Assembly: GCF_021049285.1 (NCBI RefSeq)
Contig: NZ_CP088017.1
Location: 992,001 to 1,056,000 of the forward strand
Origin: Ruania halotolerans
Lineage (GTDB): Bacteria > Actinomycetota > Actinomycetes > Actinomycetales > Beutenbergiaceae
Length of the DNA stretch: 64,000 nt
Direction: 5' to 3'
The notes below the pieces were generated by a model. It was not told the origin of the DNA. It did no database searches and worked only from the letters and a program-made list of their open reading frames with translations. Below, in pieces: positions 7,449 to 25,103 of this stretch. Every line of letters begins with the position of its first letter. Position 1 is the first letter of the stretch. The translations under genes and the position numbers were made by a program.

Positions 7449-8294
7449 GTGACTCACACCAACACACCCACTCTTTCCCTCAACGATGGCACCACGATCC
7501 CGCAACTCGGTTTCGGCGTGTGGCAGATCCCGGACGACGAGGCACAGGCTGCCACTGAGGAGGCCATCCGCGTCGGCTACCGCCTCATCGACACTGCTGC
7601 CATCTACGGCAACGAGGCCGGTGTTGGCCGTGCCATCGCCGCGTCCGGTGTGAACCGTGACGACCTCTACATCACCACCAAGCTCTGGAACGGCAACCAG
7701 GGGTATGACTCCACGCTGCGTGCCTTCGATGAATCGATGGACAAGCTCGGCCTGGACGTGCTCGACCTGTACCTAATCCACTGGCCGTGCCCGAAGGCCG
7801 ACAAGTTCACCGACACCTGGAAGGCGTTCGTCGAGCTGAAGAAGTCCGGCCGGGTGCGCTCGATCGGTGTCTCGAACTTCCACGCCCCGCACCTGGACAA
7901 GATCATCGACGCCACCGGCGAGGTGCCGGTGCTGAATCAGGTGGAGCTGCACCCCTATCTTCCACAGGGTGAGCTGCGATCAGTGAACTCCTCCCACCAG
8001 ATCGCCACCGAAGCATGGTCGCCGCTGGGCTCTGGCCACGGCCTGCTCGAGAACGAGACCCTCACCTCGATTGCGAGTGCGCACGGGGTGACCCCGGCGC
8101 AGGTGGTGCTCGCCTGGCACCTGCAGCTCGGCAACGTGGTGATCCCCAAGTCCGTGACGCCGTCACGGATCGCGGAGAACTTCGCTGCCTCCACGGTTTC
8201 CCTCTCCGATGAGGACATGACCACGATCGCGACCCTCGACGCCGGCACTCGCTACGGTGGCGACCCGGACACCGCGAACTTCGGCCTGGAGTAA
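7449..8294 (+). CDS. aldo/keto reductase (2,5-diketo-D-gluconate reductase-like)
   Basis: 281-residue NADPH-dependent carbonyl reductase with a TIM-barrel fold. The N-terminal strand IPQLGFGVWQI, the block LIDTAAIYGNEAGVGRAI with catalytic Asp and Tyr (about residues 48 and 53), the Lys in ITTKLWN and the His in YLIHWPCP supply the AKR tetrad. VVIPKSVTPSRIAENF near the end is the cofactor 2'-phosphate-binding segment. The GTG at 7449 gives the normal family N-terminus; reading further upstream adds unrelated sequence. The exact substrate cannot be inferred: this subgroup reduces keto-acids, methylglyoxal and other aldehydes. Confidence 0.92.
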   Translation: MTHTNTPTLSLNDGTTIPQLGFGVWQIPDDEAQAATEEAIRVGYRLIDTAAIYGNEAGVGRAIAASGVNRDDLYITTKLWNGNQGYDSTLRAFDESMDKLGLDVLDLYLIHWPCPKADKFTDTWKAFVELKKSGRVRSIGVSNFHAPHLDKIIDATGEVPVLNQVELHPYLPQGELRSVNSSHQIATEAWSPLGSGHGLLENETLTSIASAHGVTPAQVVLAWHLQLGNVVIPKSVTPSRIAENFAASTVSLSDEDMTTIATLDAGTRYGGDPDTANFGLE

Positions 8295-8560: not shown

Positions 8561-11500
8561 ATGAATACACCTGTTCCGCTGCGCCGAAATGCGTTCCGCA
8601 CAGTGATGGCCTTTGTGACGGCGGCCCTTGTTGCAATGACCACTCTTGTTGTCGCGTCTCCTGCGATGGCGGCGCCGGTGTACGAGATCACCGCGCGCTG
8701 GGCGCAGGACACGCCGGACACTGTGGCCAGTGGGGACGTGGTCACGGCGGAGTGGCGGGTCAACGTCAACGATGACGCTGCAGCACCCTCGAATGAGCCC
8801 GTCGACAACGTGAACTTCACCCTCACTCTGGAGAACGGCACCTTCGCGTCTCTGCCGGACTCGTGCGTAATGGGCGGCACCCCCGAGTCCTCGATATCTG
8901 ATGACGGACAGACGCTGGTCTGCAACATCGGCACTCAGGACCAAGGGTCCGCCCACGTGGTCCAGACCGCCGTTCTTGTGGACGGCGAGACGGGCTCACA
9001 GGTGAGCGCGTCGGGCACTATCGACGGGCTCACAGCGGATCTCGCGCCGATCGAGATCGAGAACACGTTCGGCCTGGACATGGACTGGGGCACGCCGACC
9101 GGCGACTTCGGGTTCGGTGACACCTACGTCGACGTCGACTACCAGTGGACTCTCTTCCTGGCCAAGGGTTCGGAAGCCGGACCCGACTCGGTCAGCTACA
9201 CCGTGGACGTCACCGCTGACAACGGCTCCGCCGTGAGCCTCACTCCAGGCGCGGAGTGCACACCATTCACCGAGTACGCGGCGCCGGGCCACCCGTGGTC
9301 GGGCGGCGATCAGCCCGCGGAGAACACGGCACCGTTCGTGGGCAGCTGCACCCTCACCCCCACCGGCACCCCCGGACGCTTCACCCTGACCCTGACGGGC
9401 ATCGACTACTCACTGACCGACGTCCCGACCCGGGACTCTGCGAATGCGCCGCTTCCCGTCGATCGCTCGGCGGTCGCCAGCGGGTCGGTGTCCTTCCGCT
9501 TCGACACCACCACGAACACCGGCACGAACCTGTCGACAAACGCTCCGACGTACACCGCTCCCGGAAGTGGCGCCACAGTCGTTGATGATGCCGCGAACAA
9601 CACGGCGAACAAGGCCATCACGTTCCCCGGTGGGGTGAGCGCCTCCTGGAATCGCGACTACACCAACGCCGGTGGCGGCCCGTGGGACGACAGCTACCGG
9701 GTCTCGCGTGGCACCCAGGTCCAGCAGCATATGAGCCACGACACCCGGGGGTTCGCCGATAGCGACCCTGACTCGCTCTTCGGACTCTGCCAGGTCCTCG
9801 ACACGCGCTACGTGGACTACGCGCAGGTGCAGGTCGGTGGAGGGATCGACCTTGGGACCTACCCGGTGCAGTACTACGTGGGCCCCAGCCCGCTGCTCGA
9901 CCCCGACAGCGCCTCCTATGACCCGAACCAGTTCGGCTGTGACACGGGAGGCACCACGGTGGACGGCGGTGGCGGATGGGTGACCACGGCACCGGCAGAC
10001 CTCAGCACAGTGGGTGCGGTGCGGATCGTCTATCCCCAGACCGTCACCCAGGAGCACCCGGCGCGTGAGGCGCTGAGGGTCATGAGCACCATTCAGGACG
10101 ACGTGCCCGTCGGCCAGGACATCTGGATGTGGGGCCTCCAACTTCAGAATGACAATTGGCGCGTCCCAGGGGCTGGCTCCTCGGTGACGGCGACGCCGGA
10201 CGCCCGTTACCCGGCAACGCATGTCACGCGAGACATCCTGCGCGTGGTTTCGGCGACGCCGGCGGTGGAGAAGTCCGTTGATCGTTCCGTGGTCACTCCC
10301 GGCGCCCCTGCCACATACACGCTGACGTACTCGGCGAACGGAGCCGGCGGCGTACCGCCGGCTATCGACGGTTACGAGTTGGTGGACACGCTGCCTGCGG
10401 GCATGACCTACGTGCCTGGTTCGGCCACTCCTGAGCCTACTCTCTCCACGGCAGGTGGTCGGCAGGTGCTGACGTGGGGCCTCGACGACGTCCCGACGAA
10501 CACCGAGCAGGCGCTGACCTATCAGGCGGTAGCGGATGACTCGGTGGAACCGGGTGAGGTGCTGACCAACGAAGTGGAAGCCGCGTATGACGGTCACACC
10601 GCGAGCGATTCGGCTCAGGTGACGGTTTCGACGTCGGGTTTCACCACGATTGGTAAGAGTGCGGATGCGGCGTTCATTCCGAATCTTGATGGTGATGGTG
10701 TGGGTGAGGGTTCGTGGACGGTGACGTTGCGGTCGTTTGATCCGTTGCCGCAGGAGTACACGGACACGATCGACATCCTTCCCTTCAACGGTGATGAGCG
10801 GGGTACCGAGTTCTCGGGTTCGTATGGGTTGACGGGTGTGGATGCGGTCGCGGGTGCGACGGTGTATTACACGACGGCGGACCCGGACTCTCTTTCTGAT
10901 GATCCGGCGGATGGGTCCAATGGTTCTGCGGGGTCGGTTGCGGGTAACACGGTGGGGTGGTCGACCACGTTCACCGCTGATGCGACTGCGGTGCGTGTGA
11001 TTGGTCCGGAGTTGGTTCCGGGTGGGACGCAGCAGTTCACGGTGAATGTGGCCACTGATGGTGTGCTGGGTGGTGATGTGCTGGTCAACCGTGCGCAGGC
11101 CCGGGATGGGCACACGGAGTTGGTGATGCGGACGTCGGCGCCGATCACGATTGCGAATTACTACTCGGCATCGCTGAAGAAGTATGTGCAGGATGCTGAG
11201 GGTGAGTGGCGTGATGCGAACACGGTGGAGGACTATCCGAGTTTCTTCGTTGGTGACACGATCCGTTACCGGATCGTGGTGGAGAACACCGGTCAGGGCA
11301 CGCTCACGGGCGTGACCGTGACCGATGATCAGCAGCCCGATCTGGGTGGGTTCGTCATCGACGAACTCGCGCCGGGGGATACGGAAACGCATGAGTTCGA
11401 GATCATCGCCGATGCCTCCACGGGTGATGGCGTGGTCAACACGGCCTGCGCGACTGCGGATATCCCTGCTGATTCTGAGGTTCCTCCGACGATCAATTGT

Positions 11501-12202
11501 GATCCGGCTGGTGTAGAGGTCGAGGGCGACCCGACGCATACGAAGTCCCTGGTGTCGGCTTCGCCGATTGGCGGCGGTCAGTGGGAGATCGTGTATGCGC
11601 TTGAGGTGTCGAATGCTTCGACGGCGTCGACGTCGTACTCGCTGGTGGATGAGTTGCACTTCACTGACCAGGTGAGCATTGCCTCGGCGGAGGTCACTGA
11701 CGCACCTGAGGGTGTGACGTTGGCTGATCCGGCGTGGGATGGTCAGGGCAACCTGGCGGTGGCCACGGGTGTGCCGCTGCTGGGCAACGATGACGATGGT
11801 TACGCATCGCACATCTACGAGTTGACTGTGGTGGCGGATGTGCCGTTGCAGTTCGACCCGGTGGCGGATACCCAGTGCCTGGGTGGTGACACGGACTCGG
11901 GGTTCAACAACGTTTCCGAGTTGACCAAGTCCGATGGAGAGGTCGAGATCGACGAGGCCTGCGGCCCACCGCCGTCGGTGGATGTCTCCAAGTCGATCGC
12001 GGATGGTCCCACGCCGAACGGTGATGGCACCTGGACCGTGCTCTACGAGGTGGTCGCGACCAACGCTGGTGCAGGCGAGGGTGACTATGACATCTCTGAT
12101 CAGATGAGCGCTTCGGGTGACCTGGAGGTCATCACCAGTTCGATCACCTCGGCTCCTGAGGGTGTGACCCCGTCTGACGCGTGGACGGGCCTCGGGCGAT
12201 GA
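8561..12202 (+). CDS. giant LPXTG surface stalk protein, N-terminal part (frameshifted)
   Basis: First 1,213 residues of a secreted wall-anchored protein. The ATG at 8561 has GGGGGAG six bases upstream and starts a clear signal peptide (basic RRNAFR, hydrophobic stretch, cleavage near SPAMA-AP). A large N-terminal region (to about residue 560) has Tyr/Asp-rich beta-sandwich character with no family I recognise. It is followed by DUF11-type beta domains (GAPATYTLTYSANG; DTIRYRIVVENTGQGTL) and two of the repeat modules described at 11533. The frame closes at TGA 12200-12202 inside a repeat. One extra G in 12194-12196 explains this, because dropping it lets the reading continue into the next entry. 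Likely cell-surface adhesion or scaffolding. From about 10620 to 11860 codons shift from C-ending to G/T-ending, unlike the flanks. Confidence 0.85.
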   Translation: MNTPVPLRRNAFRTVMAFVTAALVAMTTLVVASPAMAAPVYEITARWAQDTPDTVASGDVVTAEWRVNVNDDAAAPSNEPVDNVNFTLTLENGTFASLPDSCVMGGTPESSISDDGQTLVCNIGTQDQGSAHVVQTAVLVDGETGSQVSASGTIDGLTADLAPIEIENTFGLDMDWGTPTGDFGFGDTYVDVDYQWTLFLAKGSEAGPDSVSYTVDVTADNGSAVSLTPGAECTPFTEYAAPGHPWSGGDQPAENTAPFVGSCTLTPTGTPGRFTLTLTGIDYSLTDVPTRDSANAPLPVDRSAVASGSVSFRFDTTTNTGTNLSTNAPTYTAPGSGATVVDDAANNTANKAITFPGGVSASWNRDYTNAGGGPWDDSYRVSRGTQVQQHMSHDTRGFADSDPDSLFGLCQVLDTRYVDYAQVQVGGGIDLGTYPVQYYVGPSPLLDPDSASYDPNQFGCDTGGTTVDGGGGWVTTAPADLSTVGAVRIVYPQTVTQEHPAREALRVMSTIQDDVPVGQDIWMWGLQLQNDNWRVPGAGSSVTATPDARYPATHVTRDILRVVSATPAVEKSVDRSVVTPGAPATYTLTYSANGAGGVPPAIDGYELVDTLPAGMTYVPGSATPEPTLSTAGGRQVLTWGLDDVPTNTEQALTYQAVADDSVEPGEVLTNEVEAAYDGHTASDSAQVTVSTSGFTTIGKSADAAFIPNLDGDGVGEGSWTVTLRSFDPLPQEYTDTIDILPFNGDERGTEFSGSYGLTGVDAVAGATVYYTTADPDSLSDDPADGSNGSAGSVAGNTVGWSTTFTADATAVRVIGPELVPGGTQQFTVNVATDGVLGGDVLVNRAQARDGHTELVMRTSAPITIANYYSASLKKYVQDAEGEWRDANTVEDYPSFFVGDTIRYRIVVENTGQGTLTGVTVTDDQQPDLGGFVIDELAPGDTETHEFEIIADASTGDGVVNTACATADIPADSEVPPTINCDPAGVEVEGDPTHTKSLVSASPIGGGQWEIVYALEVSNASTASTSYSLVDELHFTDQVSIASAEVTDAPEGVTLADPAWDGQGNLAVATGVPLLGNDDDGYASHIYELTVVADVPLQFDPVADTQCLGGDTDSGFNNVSELTKSDGEVEIDEACGPPPSVDVSKSIADGPTPNGDGTWTVLYEVVATNAGAGEGDYDISDQMSASGDLEVITSSITSAPEGVTPSDAWTGLGR

Positions 12203-14730
12203 CGGCGCAGCGGAGAACGTCATCGCTACGGATGTGCTGATCGCCGCTGGCGCCACGCACACCTACGAGGTCGAGGTGGTCATCGGGCTCGCGGAAGGTA
12301 CTGAAGGTGCCCCCGTCATCACGGACTGCCAGGCCATTCCCACCGAGGGCGATGGGCTGACGAACACGGCCGAGATCGAGCACAACGACCTCACCGCAGA
12401 CGACTCTGTCTGCGTCACTCCCGGTGTCGTCTCGGTCGAGAAGACTGTCTCCTCTGGGCCCACGCCCAACGGTGATGGCACGTGGACCGTCGTGTACGAC
12501 ATCGTCGCAACCCATCTCGGTGGTGCCGCTGCGGACTACGACGTGACCGACCGTCTCCACTACGGCGCAGACATCGAGATCGTCGACAAGGGAATCGTCA
12601 CTGCACCTGATGGTGTGCAGATCAACGGCTCCTGGACCGGTCTGGGCGCGGAGGACTCCGACCCGGAGAACTTGGTCGCCAGTGGTGTCACGCTGGATGT
12701 GGGTGGCATGCACACCTACCAGGTGGAGGTCACCGTCCAGATGGAGGAGGCCACCATTGATCTGGTCAACCTGGAGTGCGCTGCGGCGGGCTCGGGCGAA
12801 GCGGGCGGCCTGGCGAACTCGACCACGCTGACCAGCAACGGCATCGTGAGCGAGGACGAGGTGTGCCCCACCGTCACGGTCATCGAGCTGGACAAGGAGC
12901 TCGTTGAGGGCAGCCCTGTGGAGAATGGTGACGGGACGTGGACCATCGAGTACGACGTCACGGCCACCAACGCCGGCCCGGTGGCTGGCGACTACGACCT
13001 GAGTGACCGCCTGCGCTACGGCGCGGGGATCGAGGTCGAGTCCGCCTCGATCGTCAGCGGTCCCGAGGGTGTGGAGCCGAACGCGGGCTGGAGTGGTCAA
13101 GGCGCTGAAGGTGCGGCGGAGAACGTGATCGTGGCCGGGCAGTCGCTCGAGATCGACGAGCAGCACGTCTTCCGCGTGCGGGTCGTCGCCTCGATGGATC
13201 GCGATGTTGTCACCCCGGGTGATCTGGAATGCCCGGAGCCGGGATCGAACGAGCCGGGTGGTTTCGCCAACACTGCTGAGTTGACTCATAACGGTGAGGA
13301 CCAGAGTGATGTCGCATGTGAGGAGCCGCCGCTGATCGATATTGCGAAGTCGCTCTCGGGTGCGGTGACACCTGTTGATGGGGAGCCCGGCGTGTACGAC
13401 GCCATCTACGAGCTCACCGTCACCAACACCGGTGCCGGCGCGGGCGTGTATGACCTGGATGATGAGTTGGCACCGGGTGCTGGTGTGAGCGTGGTGGGCA
13501 TCCAGGACGTCACGAGTGACGCCCCGGACGCCGTCGCCATCAACGACGCCTTCGACGGCGTGGACCAGACGCGGATCGTGACGGACCAGCCCATCGCTGG
13601 TGCGACGGATGACGTGCCTGTGGTGCACACCTACATGGTGACCGTGCGCTACGCCGCGGACCTGACCACGGTCGACGTGCCCGCCGGTAGGGCCTGCACC
13701 ACCGCCGGTGGGGAGCCGGAGCCGGGCACGCTGGGCAATACCGCGACCGTGGACTGGAATGGTCTCCAGGACAGCGCTGTGGAGTGCTTGGTGCCCGGCG
13801 ACCCGACTCTCGATAAGGAGCTCGTCTCCGCGACGCCCATCGGGAACGGCCAGTGGGAGGTCGTCTACGACCTCACCGTGGCCAACACCGGCAACGAGGC
13901 GACCACCTACGATCTCGAGGACGAGTTGTTGTTCGCGCCGCAGATCACGGTGGACACCGTCTCGGTGACCGGGCCTGAGGGCATCACGGTCAATGACGGT
14001 TTCGATGGTGCTGGTGACCAGGTCATCGCGACCGGTATCGAGATCATCGGCCTGGATGAGGACGGCTACGCCCCGCATGTCTATACCGTGACCGTGGTGG
14101 CGAACGTGCCGCTGTCCTTCGAGGAGGCTGATGTCGCCGCAGATGGCACCGGTTCACCCGCGTGCACCACACCAGCGGGTGGGAACTTCACCGAGCAGGG
14201 GCTGAACAACGCAGCCACGCTGACCAATGAGTCTGGCGGCACGATCGTGGATACCGATTGCGGATACGTGCCCTCCACGACGATCACCAAGACCATGGAC
14301 GGTGACCCTGTCGCAGGCGCGGATGGCCAGTGGACGGTGAACTACCTCATCACGGTCGTCAATGACGGTGCAGCGAATGGTTCGTACACGTTGACCGATC
14401 AGCTCCGCTACGGCGCCGGGATCGACGTGCTCGATGCGACCATCACCGACGCCCCCGAAGGTGTCACCCCCGCGCAGACGTGGACCGGAACAGGGGGCAC
14501 CGGTGCGGTGGAGAACACCATCGCGGCCGATGTGGACCTGGCCGTGGGACAAACCCACACCTACCGGGTCAGCATCGATGCCCACCTGGACACCGATGCA
14601 GCGGATGAGTCCACGCTGGAATGCCCCGCTCCCGGCTCAACCGAGCGTGGCGGATTCAGCAACACCGCCGGCCTGGATCACAACGATCTCAGTGCCGAGG
14701 CATCAACCTGCGCAGTGCCGGAATGGCCAG
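11533..14730 (+). repeat. seven ~150-residue repeat modules in the surface protein
   Basis: Modules start near 11533, 11977, 12427, 12880, 13331, 13802 and 14276, so the period is 444-471 bases. Each opens with a K-containing strand plus a G-x-W-x-V/I-x-Y motif (e.g. GDGTWTVVYD), passes through a DY-L/D-D-x-L block and an APEGV/GPEGV turn, and ends with a pair of cysteines about 27-33 residues apart (LECPAPGS ... STCAVP). The cysteine pair suggests one disulfide per module. DNA identity between copies is moderate, so they are ancient rather than freshly amplified. Confidence 0.85.
12194..12197 (+). other. frameshift site splitting the surface protein gene
   Basis: The sequence CTCGGGCGATGAC reads L-G-R-stop. 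With one G fewer it reads L-G-D-D and continues GAAENVIATDV, exactly the pattern found after WTGLG or WSGQG in sibling modules. No alternative start with an SD lies just downstream. A sequencing error, a real inactivating indel or programmed slippage are all possible; three Gs are too few for classical phase variation. Confidence 0.88.
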
Positions 14731-14858
14731 AAGAGGTGCCCCCGCCGCTGCCGCAGACCGGTACACCGATCACCCAGACCGCACTGGCCGCGGCCCTGCT
14801 GCTCCTGATCGCCGGTGGCATCCTGATGCACCACCGCCGCCGCACCACAGCGGCGTAA
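12234..14858 (+). CDS. giant LPXTG surface stalk protein, C-terminal part (frameshifted)
   Basis: Continuation of the preceding gene. The open frame resumes at about 12195, and the GTG at 12234 is only the first start-like codon, without an SD. It encodes the rest of repeat module 2 and modules 3 to 7. Module openings are recognisable as VSVEKTVSSGPTP, IELDKELVEGSPV, IDIAKSLSGAVTP, PTLDKELVSATPI and TTITKTMDGDPVA. The protein ends with a sortase signal: LPQTG, a hydrophobic helix (TALAAALLLLIAGGILM) and a positive tail HHRRRTT. Sortase would link it to the peptidoglycan; no sortase gene is in the window. Joined, the two parts give about 2,100 residues. As it stands, this half lacks a signal peptide and would not be exported. 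Confidence 0.85.
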   Translation: MLIAAGATHTYEVEVVIGLAEGTEGAPVITDCQAIPTEGDGLTNTAEIEHNDLTADDSVCVTPGVVSVEKTVSSGPTPNGDGTWTVVYDIVATHLGGAAADYDVTDRLHYGADIEIVDKGIVTAPDGVQINGSWTGLGAEDSDPENLVASGVTLDVGGMHTYQVEVTVQMEEATIDLVNLECAAAGSGEAGGLANSTTLTSNGIVSEDEVCPTVTVIELDKELVEGSPVENGDGTWTIEYDVTATNAGPVAGDYDLSDRLRYGAGIEVESASIVSGPEGVEPNAGWSGQGAEGAAENVIVAGQSLEIDEQHVFRVRVVASMDRDVVTPGDLECPEPGSNEPGGFANTAELTHNGEDQSDVACEEPPLIDIAKSLSGAVTPVDGEPGVYDAIYELTVTNTGAGAGVYDLDDELAPGAGVSVVGIQDVTSDAPDAVAINDAFDGVDQTRIVTDQPIAGATDDVPVVHTYMVTVRYAADLTTVDVPAGRACTTAGGEPEPGTLGNTATVDWNGLQDSAVECLVPGDPTLDKELVSATPIGNGQWEVVYDLTVANTGNEATTYDLEDELLFAPQITVDTVSVTGPEGITVNDGFDGAGDQVIATGIEIIGLDEDGYAPHVYTVTVVANVPLSFEEADVAADGTGSPACTTPAGGNFTEQGLNNAATLTNESGGTIVDTDCGYVPSTTITKTMDGDPVAGADGQWTVNYLITVVNDGAANGSYTLTDQLRYGAGIDVLDATITDAPEGVTPAQTWTGTGGTGAVENTIAADVDLAVGQTHTYRVSIDAHLDTDAADESTLECPAPGSTERGGFSNTAGLDHNDLSAEASTCAVPEWPEEVPPPLPQTGTPITQTALAAALLLLIAGGILMHHRRRTTAA

Positions 14859-14954: not shown

Positions 14955-16571
14955 GTGGGAGACGATGGCTTCGCTACTGGACCGTCGGGTGATCACGATC
15001 CAGCGTCGGCGGTCGCCGCGGACGCAGGTGCGATCGTCGACGCGGCCCGGGCGGCGTGGTCCGCCGGGGACACGGAGCGGACTGTCGCCCTCATCGACGA
15101 GCATTGGTCGATCCTGTTCGAGCAAGGCCGCCACGAGCTGGACGCATTGTTCCGTCTGATTCCGCTCAGCGCATTCAAGGCCCACCCCCGTGCTGCTGCT
15201 GTGCGTGACATCCGGCTGCACACCGATGCAGATGCCGTGGCGAGGATGCTCGGTCCGAGAATCGCTATGCCGCAAGCCGACGACCTTTCGACCATCGATG
15301 CCCTCGCGCGCTCGGAGGACGCTCTCACCATCCTCGGAGTGACCAGCGCCCGGATGATCGCCTACCGAGTGCGCGGCCACTACACGCGCGCACACGAGTT
15401 GGCAGCCGTCGTGGAAAGGCTGGCGCGGATCGCCGGCGTCCACCAGCCGGCACTCGTGCATGCTCGGGTCCCGAACGCCCTCCTTCAGGGTGGCGTTTCT
15501 CGCGGGCTCGCCGGCGACTTCGACGGGGCGCTCGGAACGTTGCGTGAGGCATATGACCGAGGGCCAGAAGCTCGCTCGCCGCACGTCGCCCGGGACGCGG
15601 CAGGCAAGGCTGCCTTGTTCTCGGCGCTGGCAGGAGACATCGATCAAGCTCGGCGGTGGCTGCGTCGATATGAGACTGCGGCCGAGGTCGACGGCTGGCT
15701 GCGTTCCCGGCTGGACCTCTCGGCCGACCTCGCCCAGAGCTTGGTCGCGATCGAGTCACTAGATCGGGTCACAGCCGATGCCACGCTCGCCCGATTGGAG
15801 CTGCCAGCAGACGCCGAGCAAGGGTGGGGACCGGCGATCACGTATGTCACCGCCCGGCACGCCTTGATCTGGGGTGACAAGCTCCGTGCCGTTGAGCAGG
15901 TACGGCGCGATCGCGTGCAATTCGCCGAATGGCTCGGTGTCGGCTCAGGGCTGAGGCACTTCCTCAACCACGCCGAGAGTGACCTTCATCTGGCACTGCG
16001 ACAAGGTCATCGTGCGCGCGCCCTCCATGCACAACGCGCGACCCATTCGCTCGCTCGCTCGGCCCGAGCCCGACTGGCGTTGCTGACCGGTGATGTCGAT
16101 GCGGCTGCCCGGCTCGCGGCTCAAGGGGTGCGCGAGGCAGCGGATTCGCGCTCACGCATCGACGCCCTCACGACCCAGACCGCTGCGCACGTGCGGCGCG
16201 GGGACATGCTCGCGGCTCGGAACGCGTACGACCTGTTGACGGCCTCGGTCGCCTCTACCGGGGCTCGTTCGTTCATGCGCTATCTCTCGCACGAGGAGCA
16301 CAGGGCACTCGGCCGCGACCGAACTCGATCGGAGCTCCTCTCGCCTGACCGGCCGGTATTTCCCGCCCTCGCCGAAGGAGTCAAGCTCACCCGGCAGCAG
16401 CGGCTCGTGCTCGACGGGATGGCCGCGGGCCTGCCCATCCGGGAGATCGGAAAGCGCCAGCACTTGTCCTACAACACGATCAAGACCCACCTCCGCGCGC
16501 TCTACACCAGATTGGGCGCATCCTCACGCGATCAGGCGATCGCGCGTGCGCACGAGGAGGGCCTGCTGTGA
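14955..16571 (+). CDS. LuxR-family transcriptional regulator with helical N-terminal region
   Basis: 538-residue DNA-binding protein. The last 65 residues are a LuxR/GerE helix-turn-helix: LTRQQRLVLDGMAAGLPI, then EIGKRQHLSYNTIKTHLRAL and LYTRLGASSRDQAI. The preceding 470 residues are Ala/Arg/Leu-rich helices without a Walker A, so this is not a full MalT/LAL ATPase; they look like TPR-type repeats and may sense a partner or ligand. The GTG start is set by the promoter just upstream. It lies between the surface-protein gene and the convergent exporter gene. A role in controlling the neighbouring surface protein is possible but unproved. Confidence 0.82.
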   Translation: MGDDGFATGPSGDHDPASAVAADAGAIVDAARAAWSAGDTERTVALIDEHWSILFEQGRHELDALFRLIPLSAFKAHPRAAAVRDIRLHTDADAVARMLGPRIAMPQADDLSTIDALARSEDALTILGVTSARMIAYRVRGHYTRAHELAAVVERLARIAGVHQPALVHARVPNALLQGGVSRGLAGDFDGALGTLREAYDRGPEARSPHVARDAAGKAALFSALAGDIDQARRWLRRYETAAEVDGWLRSRLDLSADLAQSLVAIESLDRVTADATLARLELPADAEQGWGPAITYVTARHALIWGDKLRAVEQVRRDRVQFAEWLGVGSGLRHFLNHAESDLHLALRQGHRARALHAQRATHSLARSARARLALLTGDVDAAARLAAQGVREAADSRSRIDALTTQTAAHVRRGDMLAARNAYDLLTASVASTGARSFMRYLSHEEHRALGRDRTRSELLSPDRPVFPALAEGVKLTRQQRLVLDGMAAGLPIREIGKRQHLSYNTIKTHLRALYTRLGASSRDQAIARAHEEGLL

Positions 16572-20909: not shown

Positions 20910-23900
20910 CTACAGGCGGTCCACGGTGAACCTGCGACGAACGAGAAGCCCGCCGAGGAGTAGTGCCAGGGCCAGGCCGCTCATCCCAACGAGCCCGATC
21001 GAGCCAGTGGTGGGCAGCTCTCCCTCTTGATCGCCGCCGGGAGCGTCCTGGTCATCTCCCGGCGAGTCCTGATCGTCGCCCGGGGACTCCTCACCTGGGG
21101 TCTCCTGATCGCCCCCGGGGGGCTCCTCTCCTCCCGGTGTCTCGTCTCCATCGGCAGGTGCCAGGATCGTCAGTGCGGCCGATGCCTCGACCATGAGCGC
21201 CGGATCAGCGATGCGGATGGTGGCGAGTCCGACCGTGGCCGATTCGGGAATCGTGATCGTGGTGCTGAAAGCCCCTTCGGCATCGGCCACCACGTCGGCG
21301 ATGGTGATGTTACCGGGCTCCAGACGAATCTCGAGCTCGGCCAGTGCGGAGAAGTTCCGACCGGTGATTTCGAGATCCTCTCCGGCACGCACCTCGGCGG
21401 CGGAGAGGTCCAGCGACGGAGGCTCGACGTCGGCGGGTGCCACCGCTGCGCTTGGTGCGCTGGTCAGCGTGAGTGAGGGGAAGTCCGGATGAGTTCCAGT
21501 GACCTCCACCCGCAGAGTCCGCCCCACCTGATCCTCACCGGGGGTGAAGGAACTGTCCGTGGCGCCCTCGATCAGCAAGGTGTCGGCATACCACTGGTAG
21601 TTCAACGCGACCCCTTCGGGGCCCCATTCACCGGCCTGGGCCGTGACTGCTGCCGCCACCTGCGGGGTGCCCTGGATTGTGGGCGTTTCACCGGTGATGC
21701 CAGCGACCGTGAATGACACCGAGTCCGTGCCGTTGTGCACGGCGAGCGTCACGGTGGCCTCACCGGCCCGCAGTGCGTGCACCTCGTTGGTCGCCGGGTC
21801 CAGAGCCACCACAGCGTGTGCCGGTGCGTCGTCCGGACTGCCGACCCAGACGCCATCCGATCCGGTCCAGGTGTGGCTCATCGGCCACGCCACCGGGACG
21901 ACCCGGGTGTCGTCCTGCAGGATCGTCGGCTGCAAGGCGAGTGTGGTGCCGGCCACGAGGTCGGTGGTCTCGGCCCCCATCTCGACCTCCTGGACGCGCG
22001 TCATCACCTCGGCCTCAATCCACCGGCCCCATGGGCTCGTCTGAGCAGCTTCCCGCTCGATTCCGAGCATCGTCCATCCTGTGAAGGAGCCAAAGGAGCT
22101 GGTGGTGGGGTTCTTGCCGGAGTTCCCGTTGATGATCATCGGGATCCCGTCCTCGGTCTTTGCGTGGAAGATGCCGACGTGGGCGCCGACGAGCGCCACC
22201 GGCTTGCCGGAGTTCTCGGCGAACTCCTGGAGCCAGCGCCGCTGGTCCTCGGCGTCCAGCCGGTTACTCATCTGGCTGGCACGCTCGGGCAATGGATCGT
22301 CGATCGGCATGTGCTGGGCGACGACGACCGCGTCGATCTCCGGGTTCGTGGCCGCGTCGTCGAGCTGGCTTTGGAGCATGTGCAGCTGATCCACGTTGTG
22401 GGAGAACTGCGAGGGGGAGTTGTCGAGAGTGATGAAGCGGACGCCGTCGATGTCGAACGTGCCGAACGTGTCCCCGAATTCGGCGGCGAAGTTATCGATC
22501 GGTGCGCCGGCGATCTCGTGGTTCCCGGGCACGTAGTACCACGGGAAGTCGACCCCATCGAGTTCCTCGTCCAGGACTCGGCGGGCGAGGTCGAAGTCCT
22601 CGGTCGCGGCCTCGTCGACGAGATCTCCGTTGATGATGAGCAGATCCGGCTCAGCAGCGACGATCTCCCGGAAGGTCTCCCGGGCGGCCTGCACGATGCC
22701 GCTGTCGGGGTTGCGTCCCACGAACTGGGCATCCGACATGACGGCCACGCGTAGGGGAGCGTCCGCTGTGACGCCGGTCTCGGCGATCACATCGTCGGTC
22801 ACCAGATCTTCGCTGGGCAGGTCAACCGCCGGAGGGACCTGAGCGGTGAGGTCGTCGAACCACATCGTGCCGGTGTACGACTGTGCGCCGGACGTCTCGT
22901 AGGCACTGACCATCTGAATCCGGACGGGGTATGGCGTGCCTTCAGGGAGCGGGTAGCTGATCTGCTGCCACTCGTCGCCCTGCGGAGCCGGCCCATAGAT
23001 GTACTTCCAGGCACCGTCGGCGTCGGAGTAGCCCACATAGGTCTCCGCGTTCTCCCCGGTGGAGGATTCGCCCCGAACCCAGAGCGTGATCTCACTGGGC
23101 TGGCCAGGAACCTCATACCCGGGGTGACCGGCCTCCGGTCGCGCGTTCGCGGTCCGGGTGCCGGTCGACTGGGAGAAGTCGTAGGTCAGGGCCACGGCGC
23201 CGTTTCCGTCGTGGCCGGCGTCCGGCGCTGGATCCGCCGAGGACGTCGACCGTGCGCCTGTGGTGCGCCAGGTGTCGACTTCCTCGAAATCGAGAACCAT
23301 CTGCTCCTCGAACCCGACGGTGAATGCCACATCGACGCTGACGCCTGCCGCGGTGAACGTCATGCGTGCCGAGGTCGTCTCCGCATCGGAGGTCACCGTG
23401 TAGGTGCTGTGCTCACCGGGTTCAAAGGTGAATACGCCCTCCTCATTCCCTTCAATCGTGAGGTCATCGGACTCAATCGGCGCCCGGAACCCGCGCTCGT
23501 CAAAGCCGTAGATCGTCAGCTCGTGAACGCTTCCCTGGTCCGGCAACTGCACGGCTGACTCGGAGGCACGCAGACGCTCGAGCTCGCCGAGGACGGTGAT
23601 GTCAACGGTGCCGGTGGCTCCGGCGCTCGCAGCGGAGACCTGGGTCTCGCCCGGCTCCTCGCCGGTGACCGTCGCGGTGCTCTCGGTGCCTGGCTCGATG
23701 GTCACCGGTCCGGAAGCGGACCATTCCGGTTCGGTGCCCGAGATGTAGGCGCCTTTCTCGTCCACACCGTGCGCCACGAGCGTGCGGCGAAGGCCGGGGA
23801 ACACCCGCGCGGTCTCCGGCGCGTCCAGCTCGGTGCGGATCACACACTGGTCGACGGTGCCGCTTCCCGCCTCGACGAACAGACCGATGCTGTTGGGGAC

Positions 23901-25103
23901 CGGGCGCTCGAACCCGTCCGAGGGAGTGTTCGGCACGCTGGGTTCGAGGCTGAAGGTGCTGACCGTGGGTTCGCGCACCGTCATCGTGCTGGAGCCGCCG
24001 CCGTCGAGGTTGACGGCGTCGTTGGCACCGAGCTGGTCGAAGAGCGTGCCGAACTGCGTCAGACTCAACCCACGGCTGGTCTGCATGCGACCGTCGACGG
24101 TCACCAGCAGCAGCGTGTTGCCGTCGTCCGCGAATCCGATACCGGTGCGCGGATGCAGATTCTGGTCAGTGTGCGATTGCACGGTGCCGTTCTCCATCAG
24201 CAGATGGTTGGCCCCGATCGCACTGGCGATCTCACCGGCCGGGGAGGAGACATCCTGCGTGATCTCCACCGTGTCGCCGGCACGCAGTTCGCGCATGACG
24301 TCCGCCACGTCTCCTTGCCGGGCGGCGAGATAGACGACGCCGGAGGGCACGGCGCCAGTGCCGGCGCCTTCGGAGACCTGCACCACGGTGTCGGTCTCCG
24401 TGTCGATCGCCACCTCGACCGCTCCCGCACCCGCGGCACGCGCGCGGGTGTAGTCGCCCCACCGGCTGTCGAAGAGGGCGACGTTCCCAGGCTGGAGCGT
24501 GGGGGTGTTCACCCCGGAGATCTCGATCTCCACGTCGTCGTTGAACACGGCCAGACCGTTGTACTCGACCGGGGCGATGGTGCCGCGGCCGTCCGTGGTG
24601 AACACGACCGGACGGTCACCGGCACCGTCCGGCACAGTGACGATGCCAGCGGTGGAGGAGATACCGATCCCATACGGGGCATTGGAGTTGTTGATGTCGA
24701 AGAAACTGCCGTTCACTGCCGCGATGGCGCCGTTCTCCTCCAGCATCTGCGAGACCGGCACCGCATCCGAGACCACGCCAGGAAACATGTAGTCGGCACG
24801 TACCTGCCCGGAACCGATGTCGGCCACGAGGATGTCCATGTCCAGGCGACCCTCGTCTTCGACGCGGCTGACGCTCACCAGATCGACGCCCGGCGCGATC
24901 GAACGGTGGTCCTGCTGGGTGATCACCGCATTGCCGGAGTCATCGAGATCCATGGACTCGATGAACTCGTCGTTCGATGCATGAGCCGGCGTGCTCAGGG
25001 CAACTGTGACCAGCGGGACGGCGACGACAGCGCCCATCAGGGCGGCCAGGCCCCGTCGTTGGCGCGGCGACGAACGCCTCGATGGCGTCAGCAGTATGGA
25101 CAA
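20910..25103 (-). CDS. LPXTG-anchored phosphodiester glycosidase/metallophosphatase multidomain protein
   Basis: 1,397 residues. The TTG start is supported by AGGAG six bases upstream and is followed by a signal peptide ending THAAHA-like at TPAHA-SND. Residues about 50-400 resemble the NAGPA phosphodiester glycosidase family (AAVNGSFFDINN, DAVNLDGGGSSTMTV), which removes sugars from phosphodiesters. Ig-like domains follow, then a beta-sandwich that looks carbohydrate-binding. From about residue 785 comes a calcineurin-type phosphatase (VAVMSDAQF, NGDLVDEA, VPGNHEIAG, VVAQHMP, GAHVGIFH), in which the first His is Gln, as in a known subset. A Pro/Gly/Asp repeat spacer leads to LPTTG, a membrane helix and RRR. 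It likely attacks sugar-phosphate polymers (for example teichoic acids) at the cell surface; that is inference. Confidence 0.87.
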   Translation of the reverse strand: MSILLTPSRRSSPRQRRGLAALMGAVVAVPLVTVALSTPAHASNDEFIESMDLDDSGNAVITQQDHRSIAPGVDLVSVSRVEDEGRLDMDILVADIGSGQVRADYMFPGVVSDAVPVSQMLEENGAIAAVNGSFFDINNSNAPYGIGISSTAGIVTVPDGAGDRPVVFTTDGRGTIAPVEYNGLAVFNDDVEIEISGVNTPTLQPGNVALFDSRWGDYTRARAAGAGAVEVAIDTETDTVVQVSEGAGTGAVPSGVVYLAARQGDVADVMRELRAGDTVEITQDVSSPAGEIASAIGANHLLMENGTVQSHTDQNLHPRTGIGFADDGNTLLLVTVDGRMQTSRGLSLTQFGTLFDQLGANDAVNLDGGGSSTMTVREPTVSTFSLEPSVPNTPSDGFERPVPNSIGLFVEAGSGTVDQCVIRTELDAPETARVFPGLRRTLVAHGVDEKGAYISGTEPEWSASGPVTIEPGTESTATVTGEEPGETQVSAASAGATGTVDITVLGELERLRASESAVQLPDQGSVHELTIYGFDERGFRAPIESDDLTIEGNEEGVFTFEPGEHSTYTVTSDAETTSARMTFTAAGVSVDVAFTVGFEEQMVLDFEEVDTWRTTGARSTSSADPAPDAGHDGNGAVALTYDFSQSTGTRTANARPEAGHPGYEVPGQPSEITLWVRGESSTGENAETYVGYSDADGAWKYIYGPAPQGDEWQQISYPLPEGTPYPVRIQMVSAYETSGAQSYTGTMWFDDLTAQVPPAVDLPSEDLVTDDVIAETGVTADAPLRVAVMSDAQFVGRNPDSGIVQAARETFREIVAAEPDLLIINGDLVDEAATEDFDLARRVLDEELDGVDFPWYYVPGNHEIAGAPIDNFAAEFGDTFGTFDIDGVRFITLDNSPSQFSHNVDQLHMLQSQLDDAATNPEIDAVVVAQHMPIDDPLPERASQMSNRLDAEDQRRWLQEFAENSGKPVALVGAHVGIFHAKTEDGIPMIINGNSGKNPTTSSFGSFTGWTMLGIEREAAQTSPWGRWIEAEVMTRVQEVEMGAETTDLVAGTTLALQPTILQDDTRVVPVAWPMSHTWTGSDGVWVGSPDDAPAHAVVALDPATNEVHALRAGEATVTLAVHNGTDSVSFTVAGITGETPTIQGTPQVAAAVTAQAGEWGPEGVALNYQWYADTLLIEGATDSSFTPGEDQVGRTLRVEVTGTHPDFPSLTLTSAPSAAVAPADVEPPSLDLSAAEVRAGEDLEITGRNFSALAELEIRLEPGNITIADVVADAEGAFSTTITIPESATVGLATIRIADPALMVEASAALTILAPADGDETPGGEEPPGGDQETPGEESPGDDQDSPGDDQDAPGGDQEGELPTTGSIGLVGMSGLALALLLGGLLVRRRFTVDRL

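Follow-up and report, generated by a model that had tools for sequence, protein, structure and literature searches.

A predicted wall protein in two frames

The locus described here raises the question of whether two adjoining reading frames in Ruania halotolerans are separate genes or the halves of one gene, and, if the latter, whether the break exists in the organism or only in the deposited sequence. The window, meaning the whole stretch of DNA that was analysed, comprises 64,000 nucleotides (assembly GCF_021049285.1, contig NZ_CP088017.1, positions 992,001 to 1,056,000) of a genome that is one contig of 4,270,413 bases. The whole split gene extends from 8561 to 14858 on the + strand and corresponds to a wall-anchored protein of ~2,100 residues. 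Its parts and its downstream neighbour are the following.

8561..12202, + strand: first reading frame (ORF A), with signal peptide, head and first stalk modules (translation; DUF11, DUF7507 and B_ant_repeat matches)
8561..8668, + strand: signal peptide region, ending at AMA (translation; cleavage site by eye)
8669..10600, + strand: head (comparison with the genome's own paralogue, trees, predicted beta-sandwich chain)
10613..14855, + strand: stalk and anchor in common with the whole paralogue (DNA alignment of both copies)
12168..14858, + strand: second reading frame (ORF B), with the remaining stalk modules and the sorting signal (translation, homologues)
12177..12196, + strand: short altered stretch, comprising a three-base substitution patch (12177-12179) and a one-base length difference (alignment)
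14750..14855, start approximate, + strand: LPQTG sorting signal, hydrophobic stretch and basic tail (translation; NF058582 and TIGR01167 above cut-offs)
14955..16571, + strand: LuxR-type regulator gene, which adjoins the wall gene and has a homologue adjoining the syntenic gene of a congener (G001)

The family consists of giant sortase-anchored surface proteins of Actinomycetota. In these, a secretion signal and a variable head are followed by a stalk built from Ig-like modules, which leads to an anchor of the LPxTG or LAxTG type. ORF A begins at an ATG (8561) preceded by a GGGGGAG motif and encodes 1,213 amino acids before the TGA at 12200-12202. An earlier sequence-only reading had assigned a signal peptide to this frame. 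The start is signal-like, with a hydrophobic stretch followed by AxA, as judged by eye (in homologues, by a crude pattern). The frame also holds DUF11 and B_ant_repeat modules above cut-off: PF01345 is matched at 36.6 bits (cut-off 24.6), TIGR01451 at 50.6 bits (cut-off 24), and PF24346 also exceeds its cut-off.

ORF B ends in an LPxTG-type motif (LPQTG) followed by a hydrophobic stretch and a basic tail (RRR). The assignment of an anchor to this frame is borne out by NF058582, among the LAVTG / LPXTG-type anchor models (32.7 bits, cut-off 27), and by TIGR01167 (18.9 bits, cut-off 15.9); a Pfam scan at E 0.001 gave no anchor match for it. TIGR01451 reaches 17.2 bits in ORF B, below its cut-off of 24, and the isopeptide-type domain model TIGR04226 is above cut-off in the whole paralogue and below it in both halves in the window. 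No signal peptide is visible in the translation of ORF B, and the earliest start codon available to it, GTG 12234, corresponds to a valine codon within the paralogue.

The two frames abut with an overlap of 35 nucleotides. Third codon positions are 70-83% G+C in frame A up to the break and 77-82% G+C in frame B beyond it, so that the third-position peak passes from one frame to the other at the break, and no further stop occurs across 874 codons downstream. The site itself is a run of three, with no long homopolymer. It lies after residue 81 of a modelled 161-residue slice, between two strands of a stalk module, in agreement with the original placement of the break within a repeat.

A whole paralogue and other relatives

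Whether the locus is one gene or two can be judged by comparison with other members of the family. A paralogue in the same genome (L021; G000:C1:412941-419351) is a single open frame of 2,136 codons, close to the length of ~2,100 residues estimated for the joined halves. Over 10613-14855, the window copy differs from it by 97 substitutions and one length change in 4,243 nucleotides, and this sole length change falls inside the interval 12190-12240 in which the break had been placed. Signal and sorting signal share one frame in the paralogue and, as originally observed, do not in the window copy. Three further paralogues in the genome (L022, L023 and L024) are single frames with an anchor motif.

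Twenty of 22 distinct homologues are single frames, and none of the 22 is broken where the window gene is (L045 and L028 represent a single gene and enter the count only once). The frame is continuous across this point in 18 of 18 aligned homologues, a set picked from single-frame genes, so that this figure is partly by choice and 20 of 22 is the fair count. Four genes outside the alignment (L026, L031, L032 and L033) have frames that span the point. Relatives carrying two distinct genes here, the case that would have spoken against a single gene, were not found among the 22. The two broken homologues are L026 of G003, whose split lies in the same module but ~60 residues before that of the window gene, and L033 of G004 (~40% identity), which loses its frame near 7470, in the membrane part of the sorting signal near the C-terminus, with the tail in another frame. 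A near-identical twin of L026 was not found among the G003 matches listed. Within the genus of the window, 3 of 11 family genes (the window gene, L026 and L033) are thus broken, each at its own site, and L021 to L025, L027, L031 and L032 are unbroken. Given the whole paralogue, the 20 single-frame genes among 22 homologues and the lack of any homologue broken at this point, sequence comparison indicates that the window locus is one damaged gene, not two, as the proposal of a one-base frameshift had it.

A LuxR-type regulator, or its DNA-binding part, is found near the wall gene in at least 7 of 21 homologous genes besides that in the window (L024, L025, L028, L031, L032, L042 and L050); this count is a lower bound, with short flanks in several loci and L033 excluded. 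Sorting motifs vary in the loci L042-L050, in which 8 of 10 genes have LAxTG, L044 has LERTG and L045 has LPRTG; these genes may be served by a different sortase class. Family members also occur in tandem, in Cellulosimicrobium cellulans JZ5 (L046, 137-6637 and 6782-13498), where the second head is far diverged and longer.

The window contains a second wall-anchor candidate at 20910-25103 on the minus strand, a protein of 1,397 amino acids with a phosphodiester glycosidase (NAGPA) domain and a calcineurin-like phosphoesterase domain. Its Pfam anchor scores 17.3 bits against a cut-off of 20 in the protein scan and is above cut-off in the genome search. No match to this protein was found in the 80 kb of G001 compared.

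Origin of the break

For the second question, we lean slightly to mutation over artefact. With a probability of roughly 0.55, a very recent one-base change inside the stalk of a wall-anchored family member put the anchor half out of frame. The alternative of an assembly or polishing error, by which the gene is whole in the organism and the deposited sequence is wrong at one base, perhaps along with the three-base patch, is a substantial possibility that we place below even odds.

Codon changes, polarised by three outgroup genes, bear on the age of the break. Downstream of it, the broken and whole copies have 9 versus 8 nonsynonymous and 15 versus 14 synonymous changes, with 12 unresolved; upstream, the corresponding counts are 4 versus 3 and 5 versus 3, with 7 unresolved. 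Relaxed selection on the second half was sought in these changes and not seen, which would suit an error. Because the downstream changes are even and no further stop has arisen, the substitution record indicates that the break is either very recent or an artefact that is not in the organism.

The setting of the break also favors an error. The window copy lies in the 4,243-nucleotide repeat, whose two copies share identical runs of up to 551 nucleotides. A passage of the Polypolish paper (PMC8812927) describes how short reads from a repeat with an error in one copy are placed on the correct copy, so that the error is left standing. Moreover, the three-base patch that marks the window copy is 15 bases upstream of the length change, so that the break lies within 18 bases of it, as might be seen with a local consensus error, and the residue pair at 12177-12179 occurs in none of 18 homologues. 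Against an error, the site is a run of only three, and six runs of five within 10613-14855 have the same lengths in the window copy and the paralogue. Neither gene is broken in the other similar pair of the genome, L022 and L023, although these are less alike (86% DNA identity) than the window gene and L021.

All three broken family members come from genomes of one or two contigs, which are perhaps long-read assemblies, and this too would fit an error. Counter-examples are the member in G001 (one contig) and the four other members in the window's genome, all of which are whole. A control for break frequency compared stretches of the window's genome with congeners and covered 51 conserved genes with 23,494 aligned residues, or ~144 kb of 4.27 Mb. 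The break studied here is the only one among 24 conserved genes in the window (10,154 aligned residues), and a second stretch has none in 27 conserved genes (13,340 residues). The lack of any other break in these 51 genes argues against an error, but the control misses shifts near gene ends, given that it reported no breaks in G004 despite the broken L033. In G003 it flagged three breaks; one is L026, and the others, which may be in non-coding sequence, fall within 62 residues of the beginning of stop-to-stop frames.

The control also flagged an apparent break at 59.1-60.4 kb of the window. It was rejected, as both genes at that site stay in frame throughout in G001, with 96% and 86% identity. 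The draft genome G006 (~40 contigs) has five apparent breaks in conserved frames relative to G003 (L063-L066, G006:C22:120001-200000), some of which may be non-coding ends. Some of them may be real, which weakens the link between breaks and long-read assemblies.

Searches for a donor of the altered stretch covered the window (with 23 bases, allowing 3 mismatches), 52 loci (20 bases, exact matches only) and the window together with four paralogues from the same genome. Besides the site and the paralogue's own version, they gave only matches of 12-17 bases. The plasmid collection gave no match in near mode.

Programmed recoding, in which ribosomes would shift frame at the break and so translate both halves as one protein, is very improbable. 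The frames do abut with a short overlap, and the base after the TGA stop is C, a context shared with the prfB recoding site. However, recoding is unneeded at this point in the paralogue, which is 98% identical, and in other homologues, and no slippery site was recognized by eye. The predicted folding of 101 nucleotides around the site is like that of shuffled sequence (z -0.03). A programmed frameshift gene would be expected to keep its break in relatives; of the 22, none breaks here and two break elsewhere. Least probable of all is that the halves work as separate genes, one for a secreted head protein and the other for an independent protein downstream. Both frames are long and without further stops, but in none of the 22 homologues do two genes meet at this point, and ORF B has no visible signal peptide and a first start codon that is internal in the whole paralogue.

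Apparent head exchange on shared stalks

Comparison revealed features that were not apparent from the window by itself: the near-identical whole paralogue, the other broken members and an apparent exchange of heads. The window gene and L021 are 98% identical in the stalk and 62% in the head. Their DNA is 90-98% identical up to ~8900, and then ~48-81% per 100 bases up to 10600. In protein, numbered by the stop-to-stop frame of L021, identity is 88-96% per 50 residues over the first 150, 35-80% over residues 200-749 and 92-100% from residue 750 to the break. Substitutions between the two stalks are clumped, and none of 5,000 uniform shuffles matched either the clumping or the longest identical run, which is 551 nucleotides. 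Recombination between the copies is the natural reading of this pattern.

Trees of the parts disagree. In both stalk trees, the window gene and L021 are sisters (100/100). In the head tree, L021 and L025, the latter from the congener G001, form a pair (support 100/99), and the window gene is placed beside L042 and L047 in a fork without resolution; the four-member set that includes L046b, which has a long branch, has support 96/99. The heads most like that of the window gene are from Microbacterium halotolerans (69%) and C. cellulans MP1 (65%). The window locus is nevertheless syntenic with L025, with GH20, aldo-keto reductase, wall, LuxR, MFS and glycosyltransferase-like genes in the same order (the last label was assigned by reading, without a family search), and the five flanking genes are 71-87% identical between G001 and the window. 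Thus, the gene at the syntenic place in G001 carries the head type of L021. Because the window locus, and not L021, is syntenic with L025, a head was probably replaced at one of these loci.

Other pairs show related patterns. L022 and L023, from one genome, are stalk sisters, and the head of L023 groups with L027 of G006. The pattern is partial for L047 and L048 of C. cellulans MP1, in which the lower stalks are sisters and the upper stalks are not; the head of L048 groups with a Microbacterium MAG (100/100). It is less clear for the tandem pair L046a/b. Across the family, heads appear to have been exchanged between loci and species while stalks were homogenized within a genome. A more speculative and rather improbable extension is that such genes form a reservoir of heads on a common, homogenized stalk, with frame breaks as reversible silent states; a broken copy would shed its head, recombination with a whole sister would restore it, and the cell could switch the heads that it displays.

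Predicted product and relation to known systems

As sequenced, the cell would make a precursor of 1,213 residues that would be exported with the head and part of the stalk. The exported product would be released instead of bound to the wall, and would end in half a domain. The second half, which has neither a signal peptide nor an evident start, would probably not be made or not be exported. The whole paralogue, with its near-identical stalk and different head, would remain. As recombination seems to maintain the similarity of the two stalks, the break would be either young or likely to be overwritten in time.

A model of the head based on ten sequences predicts beta-sandwich-like domains arranged in a chain (mean pLDDT 83.8, pTM 0.48). 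For the broken module, modelled from nine relatives, nine strands are predicted, and the break separates the fourth from the fifth; of the five models, the best has a mean pLDDT of 82.6 and the lowest 33.2. The best structure matches, which are the Ig-like domains of PrgB for the head (TM-score 0.21) and a match with E 6.3e-4 for the module, are generic for beta-rich proteins. A sequence search of solved structures gave one weak match for the head (E 0.025) and none for the module. Neither the models nor the structure matches pointed to a function for the heads.

A lone frameshift is an ordinary event, or an error, in one copy of a family. It matters as a warning sign, in that annotation would give two proteins for what is one in relatives, and it lies in a near-identical 4-kb repeat, in which finished genomes can hide errors. 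If true, the exchange of heads on alike stalks would be a testable case of modular exchange in large actinobacterial surface proteins, and it is the part that deserves specialist attention; it fits ideas already known for segmentally variable genes (PMC387263). A literature search of titles and abstract openings, with limited coverage, found no paper on this wall-protein family or its head exchange.

The window protein resembles the DUF11 / B_ant_repeat wall-anchored proteins in its matches to PF01345, PF24346 and TIGR01451 in ORF A, and to NF058582 and TIGR01167 in ORF B. However, Pfam and NCBIfam models cover only a few parts of the stalk and little of the head at the limits used, and the full architecture is without a name in either collection.

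The premature-stop alleles of Listeria monocytogenes inlA (PMC6162745) are similar in that the exported section of an LPXTG protein is parted from its anchor by a frameshift or a stop. In contrast to the window protein, which is known from one assembly and without a phenotype, inlA encodes an unrelated protein of another organism, and many of its alleles are known from populations, with a phenotype.

Segmentally variable genes, as a passage of Zheng, Roberts and Kasif 2004 (PMC387263) describes them, have a highly variable segment of >70 residues between conserved segments that is proposed to serve in binding. The window family has the same layout of variable between conserved parts. Unlike genes in which a segment varies by rate alone, it includes copies within one genome that have near-identical stalks and heads that group with other species, which is suggestive of exchange and homogenization.
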